Source: Bacteroidia bacterium (lineage in GTDB: Bacteria; Bacteroidota; Bacteroidia; B-17B0; Aurantibacillaceae). From it: a stretch of 64,000 nucleotides of DNA. The translations under genes and the position numbers were made by a program. The notes under the pieces were generated by a model. It saw only the letters and a list, made by a program, of their open reading frames with translations. It was not told the origin of the DNA and searched no databases. The stretch lies in NCBI GenBank assembly GCA_026414605.1, contig JAOAIP010000037.1:1-64000 (forward strand). The letters run 5' to 3'. Positions within the stretch are counted from its first letter, which is position 1. Each line of letters begins with the position of its first letter. Of this stretch, positions 10,298 through 48,742 are shown piece after piece.

Positions 10298-10639
10298 CTA
10301 TTTTTTGAGGTGTTAATATCTATAATAAAGAAAAAGTGCCGTAGGCACGACTCCCTTTGTATTGTAAGGATGGACTTTAGTCCGTCCGAAATAAATCCAA
10401 ACCAAACAAAGAGCCATCGGATCGGTTCATATTTAATCCTAAAAAATGTATCGTTCCTACGGAACTCATTTTGTTTCTATCTTTTGGTCAATGGACTAAA
10501 GTCCATTGCTACAATATCTTTTGTTCCTACGGAACTGAAATTATGTAAATAAAAAAACAATTGCTAATCATTCTAAAAAAATCAATTGATACTCAAATTG
10601 TACTTAGTTAAATTCTATTCAGCACCTCAAAAAAAATAG
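10298..10639. repeat. Hairpin-rich MITE-like element with terminal inverted repeats, copy 1
   Basis: The left end CTATTTTTTGAGGTGTTAAT (10298 onward) and the complement of the right end (CTATTTTTTTTGAGGTGCTG, from 10639 backward) form terminal inverted repeats of ~20 bp. The interior contains several short palindromes: GTGCCGTAGGCAC, GGATGGACTTTAGTCCGTCC, AATGGACTAAAGTCCATT, and GTTCCTACGGAAC twice. A second copy with the same order of elements is at 48405-48742. An 80-codon open frame across it is a by-product. No transposase is present, so any mobility would be in trans. Confidence 0.8.
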
Positions 10640-10726
10640 CCGATTATCTGTCGCATATGTTTAATCCGTGTGTTCAATTAAAATCTCTCATCCCAATACC
10701 AAAATTAACACAATTTATTTTTTATC

Positions 10727-10748
10727 ATATACCTAAAAATAGGTATAT
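10727..10748. promoter_or_regulatory. Perfect palindrome overlapping the suf promoter, candidate operator
   Basis: ATATACCTA (10727-10735) and TAGGTATAT (10740-10748) are exact inverted repeats separated by AAAA. The right arm overlaps the -7 element TATATTTG at 10744-10751, so a bound regulator would block transcription of the suf operon. The layout resembles, but does not exactly match, the IscR type 2 consensus (AT-rich arm, CC..YA). No regulator gene is adjacent. Confidence 0.6.
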
Positions 10749-10751
10749 TTG
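10744..10751 (+). promoter_or_regulatory. -7 promoter element of the suf operon
   Basis: TATATTTG followed by CGGCA is an exact TAnnTTTG match 41 nt upstream of the sufA ATG. Confidence 0.65.
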
Positions 10752-10791
10752 CGGCAGATAATTATTTAGAATAAATCTAAACAATAAATAT

Positions 10792-11118
10792 ATGATAACA
10801 ATCACTGAAAGAGCCAAAGATAAAGCATTAGAATTGATGCAAAAAGAAAACAAAGGCAATGACTATTTTATCCGTGTAGCCGTTGAAGGTGGTGGATGTT
10901 CAGGACTTACTTATAAATTAGAATTTGACAATCAAATTAAAGAAACAGACAAAGTTTTTGAAGACAAAGGGATTAGAATAGTGGTAGATAAAAAAAGTTT
11001 TCTCTACTTAGTAGGTACAGAATTGGACTATACAGATGGCTTAAATGGCAAAGGTTTTGTTTTTAATAATCCTAATGCTACTCGTACTTGCGGATGTGGA
11101 GAAAGTTTTGCGGTTTAA
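10792..11118 (+). CDS. sufA: A-type Fe-S carrier protein SufA/IscA (HesB family)
   Basis: The 108-residue A-type carrier has the three conserved cysteines: Cys36 in GGGCSGLTY, and Cys100 and Cys102 in the C-terminal CGCGESF. It starts MITITERAKDKALELM and includes the usual FDNQI and LDYTDGLNGKGFVFNNPNA segments. It receives Fe-S clusters from the SufBCD scaffold and delivers them to apoproteins. It is the first gene of a seven-gene operon (sufA-B-C-D-S-E-T), with 27 bp to sufB. Confidence 0.93.
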   Translation: MITITERAKDKALELMQKENKGNDYFIRVAVEGGGCSGLTYKLEFDNQIKETDKVFEDKGIRIVVDKKSFLYLVGTELDYTDGLNGKGFVFNNPNATRTCGCGESFAV

Positions 11119-11145
11119 TTAAATATAGAGTGAAATAAAGAAATT

Positions 11146-12594
11146 ATGTCCAACGAAATAATAAAAGAAAAAATAAACAAAGATTACGAATGGGGATGGA
11201 GTTTTGATATTGAAGCAGAAACAGCCCCCAAGGGATTAAACGAAGAAATCATCCGATTTATATCATACAAGAAAAATGAACCTGATTGGTTGTTAGAATT
11301 TCGCTTAAAAGCATTTAGGTATTGGAAAGAAATGAAGCATCCTCATTGGGCTCATCTTAAATTTGATATTCCCGATTTTCAAGATATTATTTATTACGCC
11401 GCACCCAAAAAGAAATCTGTGAATAGTTTAGATGAAGTAGATCCTGAGATATTAAAAATGTTTGAACGTTTAGGAATTCCTTTGGAAGAACAAAAAGTGC
11501 TTGCAGGTGTAACGCCCAATGTGGCTATTGATGCAGTACTTGATAGTGTTTCTGTAAAAACAACCTTTAGAGAAGTATTAGCCGAAAAAGGAATTATATT
11601 TTGTTCTTTTAGTGAAGCCGTTCAAAATCATCCCGATTTGGTAAAAAAATACCTTGGTTCTGTTGTTCCTTATACAGATAATTTTTATGCTGCCTTAAAT
11701 TCGGCTGTATTTTCGGATGGATCATTTTGCTATATACCAAAAGGCGTTCGTTGTCCAATGGAATTATCTACGTATTTTAGAATTAATACCGCTGGTACAG
11801 GGCAGTTTGAACGGACTTTGATTATTGCAGACGAAGAAAGTTATGTAAGTTATTTAGAAGGATGTACTGCCCCACGCAGAGATGAAAATCAACTGCACGC
11901 TGCAGTGGTAGAGATTATTGCTCATAGAAATGCTGAAGTAAAATACAGTACTGTTCAAAATTGGTATCCAGGCGATAAAGAAGGCAAAGGAGGTGTATTT
12001 AATTTTGTTACAAAAAGAGGAATTTGTTTGGAAGAAAACTCAAAAATTAGTTGGACACAAGTAGAGACAGGATCTGCTATTACTTGGAAATATCCATCAG
12101 TAGTATTAAAAGGTGATAACAGTGTAGGAGAGTTTTATTCAATTGCTTTGACTAATAATTATCAGCAAGCAGATACGGGCACAAAGATGATTCATATTGG
12201 AAAAAATACCCGTTCAACAATTGTATCCAAAGGCATAGCGGCAGGATTTAGTGAAAACAATTATCGTGGATTAGTGCAAATTCGTAAAGGGGCAAAAAAT
12301 GCTCGTAATTTTTCACAATGTGATAGTTTGTTATTATCAGATACGTGTGGAGCACATACCTTTCCTTACATTGAAGTGAAAGATACAACGGCAATTGTAG
12401 AACATGAAGCCACTACGGGAAAAATTTCAGAAGAACAACTATTTTACTGTATGCAAAGAGGCATTGATAAAGAAAAAGCCGTTTCTATTATTGTAAATGG
12501 TTATTGCAAAGATATCTTAAACAAACTACCTATGGAATTTGCCGTCGAAGCCCAAAAACTTTTAGAAATTAGTTTAGAAGGTAGTGTGGGATGA
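11146..12594 (+). CDS. sufB: Fe-S cluster assembly scaffold protein SufB
   Basis: The 482-residue protein is full length for SufB. It shows [19 protein letters not shown] near residue 45, [32 protein letters not shown] and the C-terminal [14 protein letters not shown]. SufB forms the SufBC2D complex in the cytoplasm, where clusters are built from cysteine sulfur delivered by SufE and SufS. The stop is TGA. A 116-bp gap carrying a three-fold TTACCCA repeat separates it from sufC, longer than the other gaps in the operon. Confidence 0.96.
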
Positions 12595-12710: not shown

Positions 12711-13472
12711 ATGACACCATTATTAAGTATTAAAAATCTTCACGTTACTGTAGATGGTAATGAGATATTAAAAGGCATTGATTTAGAAATCAATAAAGGT
12801 GAAATACACGCTATAATGGGACCAAATGGTTCAGGAAAATCTACTCTTTCTTATGTCTTAGCAGGAAAAGATGGCTACGAAGTTACCGAAGGAGAAATCA
12901 TCTTTAACGGAAAAAACTTATTAGAACTTAGCCCCGAAGATAGAGCAAGAGAAGGTATCTTTTTGGCATTCCAATATCCGGTAGAAATTCCAGGTGTAAA
13001 TAACATTCAATTTTTACGTACAGCATTAAATAGCATTCGTCAATATAAAGGATTAGAACCAATAGATGCTTCAGAGTTTTTGAAGTTAGTCAAAGAAAAA
13101 CAAAAACTTTTAGACCTTCCTGCTAATCTTATCAATAGATCCTTGAACGATGGATTTAGCGGTGGAGAGAAAAAGAAAAACGAAATTTTTCAATTATCCA
13201 TACTAAATCCTTTGTTGGCAATTTTGGATGAGACCGATTCTGGATTAGATATTGATGCATTAAAAGTAGTAGCCAACGGTGTCAATCATTATCATAACAA
13301 AGAAAATGCTGTTTTGGTAATTACACACTATCAAAGATTATTGGACTATATAGTGCCTGATTTTGTGCATATTTTATACAAAGGGAAAATCATCAAAAGC
13401 GGTGATAAATCATTGGCATTAGAGTTAGAAAAATCTGGTTACGACGCATACAAAGTTGAAACAACAAATTAA
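12711..13472 (+). CDS. sufC: Fe-S cluster assembly ATPase SufC
   Basis: The 253-residue ABC ATPase shows Walker A GPNGSGKSTLSYVLAG, Q-loop FLAFQYPVEIPGV, signature FSGGEKKKNEIFQ and Walker B LLAILDETDSGLDIDAL. The EIPGV and KKKNE variants are specific to SufC rather than to transporters. It powers conformational change in the SufBC2D scaffold. It lies between sufB and sufD, 6 bp before sufD. Confidence 0.96.
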   Translation: MTPLLSIKNLHVTVDGNEILKGIDLEINKGEIHAIMGPNGSGKSTLSYVLAGKDGYEVTEGEIIFNGKNLLELSPEDRAREGIFLAFQYPVEIPGVNNIQFLRTALNSIRQYKGLEPIDASEFLKLVKEKQKLLDLPANLINRSLNDGFSGGEKKKNEIFQLSILNPLLAILDETDSGLDIDALKVVANGVNHYHNKENAVLVITHYQRLLDYIVPDFVHILYKGKIIKSGDKSLALELEKSGYDAYKVETTN

Positions 13473-13478
13473 AAAACA

Positions 13479-14723
13479 ATGGAATTGACAACGACACAAA
13501 GCAATGTATTTTTGAATGAATGGTTGCAACAAATACCTACAAAAGTTCAACACATACCTGATGAAGTTCTTGTAGATGCCTTAAAATATATTGAAGAACA
13601 AGGAATTCCTGATTTGAAAAACGAAGCGTACAGAGGCGTTCCCATTGAAAGTATTCTTAAACGGTACTTTAAAAAAATAGAAATTGCTTCAAAAAATGAA
13701 GTAGCAAATACTCAAGTAGTATTTAAAAATTTTATTGTAGTAGGAGATGCATATAGTGCTTTATCTATTGAAAAAGGCATAAGAGTTTTTACTTCTGCTG
13801 ATAATATCCCACAAGAATACCTGAATTGGATAGGTCATTTTAAATTACATCAAAAAGATTTTTTTGCGGCATTAAATACAGGATATTGTGATAAATTAAT
13901 CATTATTCATATTACAGAAACACTTGATCAACCTTTGCACTTAATTCATTTTATTTCTAATCAAGGCAATTTTAATCAACAGAGAGTACTTGTTATCGTT
14001 GATGAACAAGTGAAAGCCACAGTATTAGAATCCTATCATTTTACTTGTCAACAATCTTATTTCTATAATACTTTATCAGAAATTATTCAAAAAGAGCATT
14101 CTCAATTACATTGGATCAATGTGCAAAATAATCCAACGAATACTATCTATTCTATCAACAATGTCTCTTTTTCTCTTGAAAAATCTGCTATCTTAAAGCA
14201 TCATCAAATTTCTTTGAAAGGATCATTGTGGAGAAATAATATAGAGGTTCATATTCAACAACCAGATGTAAATGCTGAAATGAAAGGTTTATCTATTGGA
14301 AAAAATCAATCTATCATTAGTCAATATACTTCTATTTTGCATCATTCAGGACATTCGCATTCTTATCAACTTTACAAAAATATCGCCGATGACAAAAGTA
14401 CTGTGTTATTCAATGGATTTATTTTAGTAGATAAAAATGCTCAAAAGACCGATGCGTATCAAAATAGTAAAAACATTTTACTCAATGATAATGCTACTTT
14501 ATTTGCTCGTCCACAATTGGAAATTTATGCTGATGATGTAAGATGCTCTCACGGTTCTACCACAGGTTCACTTAATGAAGACGCTTTGTTTTACCTAAAA
14601 ACCAGAGGTATAGAAGAAAAAGACGCTCAACGATTGTTATTACAAGCATTTTTTAATGACATTATTGAAGAGATTGATAATGCTGACATTCGTGAGTTTA
14701 TTATCCAGCAAATTGAATTATGA
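13479..14723 (+). CDS. sufD: Fe-S cluster assembly protein SufD
   Basis: The 414-residue paralogue of SufB is predicted to be all-beta. The C-terminal part holds KTDAYQNSKNILLNDNA, LEIYADDVRCSHGSTTG and LFYLKTRGIEEKDAQRLLLQ, the conserved SufD core including the His of CSHG. The N-terminal half (LKNEAYRGVPIESI) is more divergent, as usual in Bacteroidota. It pairs with SufB in the scaffold. It starts 6 bp after sufC and ends 3 bp before sufS, so translation is probably coupled. Confidence 0.94.
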   Translation: MELTTTQSNVFLNEWLQQIPTKVQHIPDEVLVDALKYIEEQGIPDLKNEAYRGVPIESILKRYFKKIEIASKNEVANTQVVFKNFIVVGDAYSALSIEKGIRVFTSADNIPQEYLNWIGHFKLHQKDFFAALNTGYCDKLIIIHITETLDQPLHLIHFISNQGNFNQQRVLVIVDEQVKATVLESYHFTCQQSYFYNTLSEIIQKEHSQLHWINVQNNPTNTIYSINNVSFSLEKSAILKHHQISLKGSLWRNNIEVHIQQPDVNAEMKGLSIGKNQSIISQYTSILHHSGHSHSYQLYKNIADDKSTVLFNGFILVDKNAQKTDAYQNSKNILLNDNATLFARPQLEIYADDVRCSHGSTTGSLNEDALFYLKTRGIEEKDAQRLLLQAFFNDIIEEIDNADIREFIIQQIEL

Positions 14724-14726
14724 TTT

Positions 14727-15947
14727 ATGAATGAAAATATACAAAAGATAAGAGAACAATTTCCCTTTATTGTTCAACATCCACAAAGTATTTATTTTGA
14801 TAATGCGGCCACTACTCAAAAGCCAATAGAGGTTTTACAATCTATTCAAAACTATTACAAAAACATCAATGCGAATATCCATCGTGGTGTTCATAAGTGG
14901 AGCATATTAGCCACTGAAGCATACGAAGCAGCACGAAAGACGGTGGCTCAATTTATTAATGCACAAGATCCAACAGAAATTATTTTTACTTCTGGTACTA
15001 CGCACAGTGTAAATCTTTTAGCCGATTGTTTATTCAATACTTATTTTCAATCAGGTGATGAAATTGTTTTATCTATTGCCGAACATCATTCTAATATCCT
15101 TCCTTGGCAAAATCGTGCTAATAAATTCGGCGTTCATTTAAAATACGCAACGCTGAATCATCTTTATCAAGTAGATGTTAATCACTTAAAATCATTGGTT
15201 ACAGAAAAAACAAAACTCATTGCCATCACTTATGTATCCAATACATTAGGAACTATCAATGAGGTCAAAGAAATCATTCAATTTGCCCACCAACACAATA
15301 TACCAGTATTAGTAGATGCCGCACAGTCCATTGCTCATTTGAAAACAGATGTGCAACAACTCAATACAGATTTTTTAGTATTTAGTGGACATAAAATGTA
15401 TGCACCTACTGGTGTGGGCGTATTGTATGCTCAAAAAAAATACCATTCGTATTTGTATCCATTGAGTAGTGGAGGAGGGGCTATTATTGATGTAGATTTG
15501 CATAAAACAGAATTTGCCGATGTCCCACTGCGATTAGAAGCAGGAACACCAAACATTGAAGCCGTTATTGGATTAGCCGATGCTATCCATTTTATCAATA
15601 AAAATGGCGGTATCCATCAATTTTATTTATTAGAAGAACATTTAAAAAATTATCTTTACCAACGATTATTTGAATTACAAGATCAACTGGATATTTACAC
15701 AACATTACAAAGCCCTTCTGTATCGGTTATTTCATTTAATGTCAAAAATCAACATCCTTTTGATGTAGGAACATTATTGAATAATTATGGTATTGCCGTT
15801 CGTACAGGACATCATTGTACGCAACCTTTAATGAAGCACTTAAAAATTCAAGGAACGGTAAGAGTATCTTTAGCCGCTTATAATACGATTGAAGAAATTG
15901 ATCGTTTTATTCAAGCATTACACAAAACCATCAAAATGCTTTTATGA
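14727..15947 (+). CDS. sufS: Cysteine desulfurase SufS
   Basis: The 406-residue PLP enzyme removes sulfur from cysteine as an enzyme persulfide. The PLP-binding Lys is K223 in FSGHKMYAPTGVGVLY. The nucleophile is Cys364 in VRTGHHCTQPLMKH, the short-loop form of group II (SufS-type) desulfurases. The substrate-binding region YFDNAATTQKP starts near residue 23. The stop codon overlaps the sufE start (ATGA at 15944), consistent with the SufS-SufE pair being made together. Confidence 0.96.
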   Translation: MNENIQKIREQFPFIVQHPQSIYFDNAATTQKPIEVLQSIQNYYKNINANIHRGVHKWSILATEAYEAARKTVAQFINAQDPTEIIFTSGTTHSVNLLADCLFNTYFQSGDEIVLSIAEHHSNILPWQNRANKFGVHLKYATLNHLYQVDVNHLKSLVTEKTKLIAITYVSNTLGTINEVKEIIQFAHQHNIPVLVDAAQSIAHLKTDVQQLNTDFLVFSGHKMYAPTGVGVLYAQKKYHSYLYPLSSGGGAIIDVDLHKTEFADVPLRLEAGTPNIEAVIGLADAIHFINKNGGIHQFYLLEEHLKNYLYQRLFELQDQLDIYTTLQSPSVSVISFNVKNQHPFDVGTLLNNYGIAVRTGHHCTQPLMKHLKIQGTVRVSLAAYNTIEEIDRFIQALHKTIKMLL

Positions 15948-16363
15948 GTCAAAATAAAATTTTAAAAATAGAAAAAGAATTGTTGGATGAATTTGAATTA
16001 TTTGGAGATGATTGGGAAGCAAAATATAATTACATCATTGAATTAGGAAAAACTTTGCCTGCTATGCCCAATCAATACAAAACAGACGATTATCTTATCA
16101 AAGGATGTCAAAGCAGAGTGTGGCTAAAAGCCGATAAAGAAAATAATCTATTGCATTTTATGGCGGATAGTGATGCTTTGATACCAAAAGGAATTATTGC
16201 TTTGCTATTGAAATTAGTGAATCATCAATCTGCCGATGAGATTTTGAATTACGATTTTGGGATTATCAATAAAATTGGCTTACAGCAACATTTATCACCA
16301 ACAAGAGCAAATGGATTGGTGAGTATGATCAATTCTATTAAACAATACGCAAAAGCACAATAA
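15944..16363 (+). CDS. sufE: Sulfur acceptor protein SufE
   Basis: The 139-residue protein accepts persulfide sulfur from SufS on Cys55 in LIKGCQSRVWL, the hallmark SufE site. It also has the usual DDWEAKYNYIIELGKTLP start and ISPTRANGL-like end (HLSPTRANGLVSMI). It overlaps sufS by 4 bp and precedes sufT by 14 bp. Confidence 0.95.
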   Translation: MSQNKILKIEKELLDEFELFGDDWEAKYNYIIELGKTLPAMPNQYKTDDYLIKGCQSRVWLKADKENNLLHFMADSDALIPKGIIALLLKLVNHQSADEILNYDFGIINKIGLQQHLSPTRANGLVSMINSIKQYAKAQ

Positions 16364-16377
16364 AAAATTTTTATATT

Positions 16378-16707
16378 ATGCCTGCTCTCATTTATACAAA
16401 TAACACAGAGTTAATGCAGAAGGTGATAGATACTTTGAAAACTTGTTATGATCCTGAAATACCTGTAGATATTTGGGAATTAGGGCTTATATACGAATTG
16501 CACTTGAACGATCAGAATGAACTCAAAGTAGTGATGACTTTGACTTCACCAAATTGTCCTGCGGCAGAGCACTTGCCATTAGAAGTAGAAAACAAACTCA
16601 AAGAATTACCTGAATTAAAAAAAGTAGAAATTCAACTGACCTTTGAACCGCCTTGGGACAAAAGCCGAATGAGTGAAATCGCTCAATTAGAGTTAGGATT
16701 TTTATAA
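16378..16707 (+). CDS. sufT: MIP18/DUF59-family Fe-S assembly factor SufT
   Basis: The 109-residue protein has the DUF59 pattern: CYDPEIPVDIWELGLIY followed by VVMTLTSPNCPAAEHLP. The Asp-Pro-Glu motif and the Cys in SPNCPA are conserved in SufT and PaaD-like proteins, which help mature Fe-S proteins. As the last gene of the suf operon it fits the SufT role. The convergent rlmD stop is only 12 bp away with no clear terminator between. Confidence 0.9.
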   Translation: MPALIYTNNTELMQKVIDTLKTCYDPEIPVDIWELGLIYELHLNDQNELKVVMTLTSPNCPAAEHLPLEVENKLKELPELKKVEIQLTFEPPWDKSRMSEIAQLELGFL

Positions 16708-48404: not shown

Positions 48405-48742
48405 GGCAAATTCTTTTTTTAGGAGTTAGTATCTATAATAAAGAAAAAGTGCCCGTAGGCACGATTCTCTTTTGTATTGTAAGGATGGACTTTAGTCCAT
48501 CCAAAATAAATCCAACTCAAACAAAGAGCCATCGGCTCGATTCATATTTATTCATCAAAAATAGGTCGTTCCTACGGAACTCATTTTATTCCTACCTTTT
48601 GGTCAATGGACTAAAGTCCATTGCTACAATATCTTTTGTTCCTACGAAACTAAATTTATTTAGATAACCAAAACAATTGCTTATTATTCTAAAAAATATA
48701 CTCAATTAAATCTTATTCAGCATCTCAAAAAAAGAATTTGCC
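48405..48742. repeat. Hairpin-rich MITE-like element with terminal inverted repeats, copy 2
   Basis: GGCAAATTCTTTTTTT (48405-48420) reappears inverted at the right end (48727-48742). Interior hairpins match copy 1 (10298-10639) in order: GTGCCCGTAGGCAC, GGATGGACTTTAGTCCATCC, AATGGACTAAAGTCCATT and GTTCCTACGGAAC. Where copy 1 has a G-U wobble in the second hairpin, this copy has a perfect pair, so structure is kept. The 72-codon open frame inside is incidental. Confidence 0.8.

Follow-up and report, generated by a model that had tools for sequence, protein, structure and literature searches.

We find that the perfect palindrome on the suf promoter of this Bacteroidia bacterium (hereafter 'site A') is a conserved dyad which occurs in two fixed registers, precedes a characteristic set of iron genes and has Fur boxes in its neighbourhood. 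As judged from sequence comparison, site A is a real, conserved candidate protein-binding site with a reader that is not of the IscR type. What is new here is a regulon motif whose reader is an orphan, and not a kind of system.

The palindrome on the suf promoter and its conservation

The features of the suf promoter and operon in the window (that is, the whole stretch of 64,000 nucleotides that was analysed) are as follows:

10721-10723, + strand: weak -33 position of the suf promoter, TTT, 20 bp before the -7 element
10727-10748, no strand: site A, perfect palindrome ATATACCTA-AAAA-TAGGTATAT (from sequence, conservation and regulon)
10727-10735 and 10740-10748: arms of site A, enclosing a 4-nt loop
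10730-10745: conserved core of site A, TACC-N8-GGTA
10744-10751, + strand: suf -7 element TATATTTG (TAnnTTTG), into which the right arm of site A extends
10765-10781, no strand: site B, TTTAGAATAAATCTAAA, a Fur-box-like palindrome in the predicted 5' leader
10792-11118, + strand: sufA-type carrier gene (PF01521)
11146-12594, + strand: sufB (PF01458)
12711-13472, + strand: sufC, ABC ATPase (PF00005)
13479-14723, + strand: sufD (PF01458)
14727-15947, + strand: sufS, cysteine desulfurase (aminotransferase V; PF00266)
15944-16363, + strand: sufE (PF02657)
16378-16707, + strand: sufT-type / DUF59 protein (PF01883)

An earlier note on this DNA had described a perfect 9-bp palindrome with its right arm on the -7 element, followed by a complete suf set. 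All of this was borne out: the coordinates 10727-10748 are exact, the arm does overlap TATATTTG, and Pfam recognizes the downstream proteins as SufA-type, SufB, SufC, SufD, SufS, SufE and SufT-type/DUF59. The -7 consensus is TAnnTTTG, with the -7 box counted as -12 to -5 (PMC9723704). At the -33 position, nine bases before TACC, most relatives have TTG (T in 42, T in 41 and G in 37 of 45 aligned upstream regions). Site A is located upstream of the predicted transcript start, and no Rfam match at gathering score was found across 10300-11200. Pairs of GGACTAAAGTCC copies, ∼121 bases apart, occur twice in the window (10372-10504 and 48487-48619; four matches vs 0.08 expected). The first of these pairs, immediately upstream of the suf promoter, resembles Acido-Lenti-1 in Rfam but stays below threshold (28.1 bits vs 37).

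The full site A pattern occurs once in the window and in 0 of 100 shuffles. Since perfect 9-bp inverted repeats are not unusual in the window (20 start positions for arms of 9 and loops of 0-8, vs a mean of 6 and a range of 2-12 in 20 Markov shuffles), the repeat per se constitutes weak evidence, and the strong evidence for site A is its conservation beyond chance rather than the palindrome itself. Orthologues of sufA were identified in 74 of 80 related genomes, and their 200-bp upstream regions were searched, the six genomes without a sufA match being left out; in G015, which is outside the 74, sites A and B precede sufB, and in G079 both sites precede a further sufA copy located at a contig end, while the other copy was counted. 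The core TACC-N8-GGTA, with TACC and GGTA invariant by design of the search, was found in 54 of the 74 upstream regions (0.04 expected from dinucleotide shuffles), the same family contributing 45 (of 47 genomes) and other families of the class 9 (of 27), and is absent from the other 20. The earlier note had taken loss of the palindrome with retention of the -7 element as evidence against its proposal: the palindrome is retained in nearly the entire family (45 of 47), but such losses do occur in other genomes (e.g., G005, G047, G051 and G072). In all 54 copies TTTG follows exactly 2 nt past GGTA, and hence site A at suf always covers the -7 element. The wider core is the 18-bp, even-centred ATACC-N8-GGTAT; its middle is not strictly symmetric, and preferences are apparent for flanking A/T and for an A-rich centre. 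Moreover, eight of 80 named loci obtained from a scan of public genomes are suf promoters with site A (L147, L151, L168, L184, L194, L198, L203 and L208), and belong to Bacteroidetes/Bacteroidia, Flavobacteriales and Chitinophaga records.

A second placement at iron-uptake genes

The check proposed along with the palindrome, that is, a search for the pattern upstream of suf and of other iron genes in relatives, returned site A at both. A suf motif is thus too narrow a description, since iron-uptake genes have the site as well. The suggestion of an uncharacterised regulator motif stands for the Bacteroidia: our literature search, largely of freely available papers, found no earlier description of site A or of any Bacteroidetes suf regulator. 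In the genome of origin, ATACC-N8-GGTAT has ten matches (vs two for a reversed-pattern control), six of which are inside coding sequence. The four intergenic copies all read ATACCTA-N4-TAGGTAT and precede suf, feoAB, a TonB receptor gene and the gene of an HmuY-like secreted protein. Of the ten matches, the one on C3 was judged by the near-identity of its context to that of the C2 copy. Because a looser search allowing up to two mismatches yields background (14 matches vs 15 for the control), the count for this genome was restricted to the four perfect sites.

Among the relatives, site A is found before feoAB (G002, G007, G014, G068), TonB receptors (G002, G003, G052, G066, G067, G068), HmuY-like genes (G002, G052), imelysin (G036, G059), DUF4856 (G036, G059, G077) and, once, before aconitase (G014), where a clear -7 element is missing. 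The G036 genes form a row of DUF4856, an imelysin-like lipoprotein (by eye), a further membrane protein and a TonB receptor. In Riemerella anatipestifer, a Fur-controlled cluster with consecutive locus numbers comprises a TonB receptor, a vitamin K-dependent carboxylase-type protein and an imelysin lipoprotein (PMC5609570). Furthermore, at L412 (4892-10004) an HmuY-like gene with sites A and B leads what is, by eye, a likely haem-uptake row containing a chelatase-like protein, a membrane protein and a large receptor-like protein.

The placement relative to the promoter was assessed for 24 non-suf sites, i.e., those among the matches listed which are intergenic and either precede iron-type genes or are promoter-like (L291, L303); matches within genes or next to unrelated ones were excluded. 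Without selection for register, 18 of these 24 among the matches listed have a -7-like box 21-23 nt after GGTAT, with an exact TAnnTTTG at that distance in 14, and six are off the -33 register. GGTAT is followed by TG in 13 of the 24 listed matches, so that the arm of site A merges with the -33 TTG. With the -7 box counted as -12 to -5, site A is centred at ∼-43.5 at uptake genes (-42.5 to -44.5 in 18 of the 24 among the matches listed), as compared with ∼-18.5 at suf.

This second placement extends through the class. In a search of 395 genomes drawn from the class, the pattern ATACC-N8-GGTATTG-N20/21-TAnnTTTG was detected at 121 places, which fall in 93 genomes and 56 of the 197 genera; the reversed control gave none. 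Of these places 92 were read, and exclusion of the 15 inside a gene or lacking a downstream ORF of 100 aa left 77 downstream proteins for a Pfam scan, which assigned DUF4856 (20), TonB plug (17), HmuY (4), FeoB (3), imelysin (2) and FTR1 permease (2); about 29 of the 77 are without a plain iron link. No paper linking DUF4856 to iron was found in our literature search. Fur boxes lie beside or within many of these promoters. The -33-type sites differ from one another at N8, and six in G348 as well as several of genus g19 resemble binding sites of other proteins, with only the outer bases in common. The six ATACC-N8-GGTATTG promoters of G348 (L344, L354-L357), some of them centred on GATC, are not upstream of iron genes as far as they were read, and probably represent another operator family with identical outer bases and an identical position at -33.

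Several further loci were noted. At L341 (genome G268), the gene after a -33-type site A encodes a protein with a hemerythrin domain. TACCTA-N4-TAGGTAT over the -7 element, with no Fur box, heads a gene which by eye resembles TrmH/SpoU-type RNA methyltransferases, mostly in Polaribacter (L135, L138, L145, L150, L163, L164, L167, L172, L179, L185, L200, L211, L212); at L163, fur- and purA-like genes are located ∼5 kb downstream on the same strand. In three genomes of genus g4 (L133, L134, L284) a site like A covers the -7 element of a DAHP synthase-like gene. Finally, TetR-like genes at L140 and L199 have ACCTACTAGTAGGT over their own -7 elements, which probably is an operator of these genes themselves, without relation to site A.

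The neighbouring candidate Fur box

The earlier account of the motif was also incomplete in that it overlooked a Fur box 16 nt past site A, and in that the motif marks an iron regulon and is not suf-specific. Site B matches the TTTAGA-N5-TCTAAA palindrome of the published flavobacterial Fur box, and its core begins, in this genome, 36 bases after the start of TACC. This core, TTAGA-N5-TCTAA, is present in 62 of the 74 sufA upstream regions, 52 of which also have site A. The starts of A and B are 25-41 bases apart (mode, 30), which implies that the two sites are not fixed in one helical phase. The genome has three perfect TTTAGA-N5-TCTAAA sites, each of which adjoins a site A.

The flavobacterial iron-gene literature that we drew on comprises PMC11967795, PMC5609570, PMC10434265, PMC9723704 and PMC9331221. 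The Fur box of R. anatipestifer, ATTTAGAATTATTCTAAAT, is a prediction based on promoters, with gel-shift support obtained on four other promoters (PMC5609570). Site B has in common with it (i) the TTTAGA-N5-TCTAAA symmetry, (ii) a size of 17-19 bp and (iii) a location less than 100 bp from the start codon, and the genes with R. anatipestifer Fur boxes include classes encountered here, namely HmuR, an Fe-dicitrate receptor and an imelysin lipoprotein (PMC5609570). Site A, in contrast, differs from that Fur box in sequence, size and its fixed placements. We consider site B a candidate Fur box. Site A is the less widespread of the two and looks like the later addition.

The genome encodes a single Fur-family protein (PF01475, 166 aa), and a search with PF01475 found no second one in it. 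Fur was found in 75 of the 80 genomes. No Fur was found in G077, which is 99% complete and keeps both A and B at suf; hence, lone absences from draft genomes may mislead.

Candidate readers and a possible mechanism

To explain these observations we tentatively favour, at somewhat less than even confidence, the view that a dimeric, iron-linked factor (termed X), distinct from Fur, Rrf2, DtxR and Crp/Fnr, has site A as its operator and would block the -7 element at suf and touch the -33 element at uptake genes. At suf, X would cover the spacer and the -7 element, and since X bound there must exclude RNA polymerase, Fe-S cluster building would be repressed. At the uptake promoters (feoAB, TonB receptors, HmuY-like haem binders, imelysin, DUF4856, FTR1) site A ends exactly at -33. 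A placement at ∼-43.5 abutting -33 is typical of activators touching sigma, and the tight register relative to -33 argues for activation of these genes. It is then conceivable that, upon iron shortage, Fur would leave site B while X would turn uptake on and restrain suf, which would amount to an iron-sparing response. A common reader for the two placements, its response to iron status and its sign at the uptake genes are all inferred from the sequences; as a counterpoint, the two placements might have different readers, and a second repressor acting with Fur at uptake genes is nearly as likely as an activator. Rather doubtful, if still possible, is the wider proposal that one undescribed regulator (other than Fur, Rrf2, DtxR or Crp/Fnr) runs a class-wide Bacteroidia iron regulon, off at the suf -7 and on at the uptake -33, thereby trading Fe-S building against iron import. 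For R. anatipestifer, suf genes appear with slight positive changes in a table that belongs to the section on iron-dependent upregulation; the direction is not settled in the parts considered, and the table is therefore of no help on the sign of X (PMC5609570). Peroxide induces Fe-S assembly genes in F. psychrophilum, and the published transcriptomes, in the parts considered, leave the sign of X undecided.

Quite possibly, if short of probably, X could instead be a repressor everywhere, which in the presence of iron or Fe-S would cover both the suf -7 and the uptake -33 and so act as an additional lock next to Fur. In favour of this, site A lies over or against a core promoter element in either placement and accompanies Fur boxes, which are repressor sites; moreover, feoAB and aconitase have site A with no clear site B. 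Yet the register at uptake genes is kept within 1-2 bp across distant families, as is needed by activators but usually not by repressors, and site A abuts the -33 element and does not cover it. It is less likely by far, although worth considering, that site A represents a second binding mode of Fur, e.g., of apo-Fur, in addition to the classical box B. In Helicobacter, Fur reportedly has operators of two kinds, A and B are 2-4 nt apart at several promoters, and among the four regulator families searched only the spread of Fur fits that of site A. When 21 Fur sequences (not all of those found) were compared, the recognition helix YRVSRAT was present in 14 of 14 genomes with site A and differed in three of six without site A at suf. 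However, the other three of these six do have YRVSRAT, which is thus no marker of site-A genomes, and a changed Fur specificity was rejected as an explanation on this ground; G071, in turn, combines a differing helix with two -33-type sites. In addition, A and B have no half-site in common, and A has been lost where B and Fur stay.

The IscR/Rrf2-type reader of the earlier note has in its favour that suf is the classical IscR target and that the outer ATACC/GGTAT resembles the outer bases of the IscR type 1 site, but with no Rrf2 protein and the wrong core geometry it is now hardly credible. The search for Rrf2 gave no match in this genome (barring the missing 4%) and was positive in 13 of 14 control genomes; Rrf2 is likewise missing from 18 further genomes that are at least 90% complete and have site A at suf (G008, G012, G014, G017, G019, G025, G032, G036, G037, G040, G041, G043, G044, G046, G067, G068, G077, G078). 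A DtxR/IdeR or a Crp/Fnr operator is very improbable. The genome has one DtxR-family protein with an FeoA domain and two matches to the cNMP-binding domain, and the -43.5 placement is class II-like. Nonetheless, DtxR was not found in eight genomes that are at least 90% complete and have site A at suf (G011, G017, G023, G024, G033, G036, G043, G067), nor was PF00027 in G036 and G068, two genomes of 99% completeness in which both suf and uptake genes have site A. Class II Crp/Fnr sites are centred near -41.5 at activated promoters; site A is centred at -42.5 to -44.5 at 18 of the 24 non-suf sites among the matches listed. In G036 Rrf2, DtxR and PF00027 are all absent, in G067 Rrf2 and DtxR, and in G068 Rrf2 and PF00027; all three families were rejected as readers because of such absences from near-complete genomes with site A. 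A chance palindrome, or a by-product of promoter sequence, has next to no probability left. Repeats of this type are not rare in the window, and the right arm and the -7 element have TA in common, but the occurrence of both arms, in one register, in 54 of the 74 sufA upstream regions rules it out, and at uptake genes site A is clear of the -7 element.

A reader encoded next to its own site was rejected, too, since across 20 neighbourhoods of site A no recurrent regulator gene was seen; among the loci retrieved, an ArsR-type gene accompanies those of G014 and G066 only, with neighbours that by eye are of arsenic type.

Returning to X as the tentatively favoured reader of site A, its comparison with known systems is as follows. 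The IscR type 1 site is 25 bp long and odd-centred. Site A resembles the control of suf by IscR/Rrf2 in being a palindrome on the suf promoter with ATA-C-C outer bases, but differs from it by its even 18-bp core, the lack of Rrf2 in the genome and a regulon that concerns iron uptake as much as Fe-S clusters. SufR is an ArsR-like repressor of suf in cyanobacteria and actinobacteria; site A likewise occupies a repressor position on the suf promoter, but the operator sequence differs. In rhizobia, the Fur-family protein Irr responds to iron shortage by turning uptake on and restraining iron-using pathways, depending on operator position. If activation at uptake genes is the right reading, X would resemble Irr in its position-dependent action, with import up and Fe-S building down. 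Site A, however, is not the TTTAGAA box of Irr, which resembles site B, and a single Fur-family protein is found here.

Site A bears on how Bacteroidota lacking IscR set suf to the iron supply, of which we found no account in the literature. With its two fixed registers, site A provides a ready bait for its regulator and would join suf, feoAB, haem uptake and families that have not been studied (e.g., DUF4856) in a single regulon. It also suggests that Fur is not the sole iron input in Bacteroidia.
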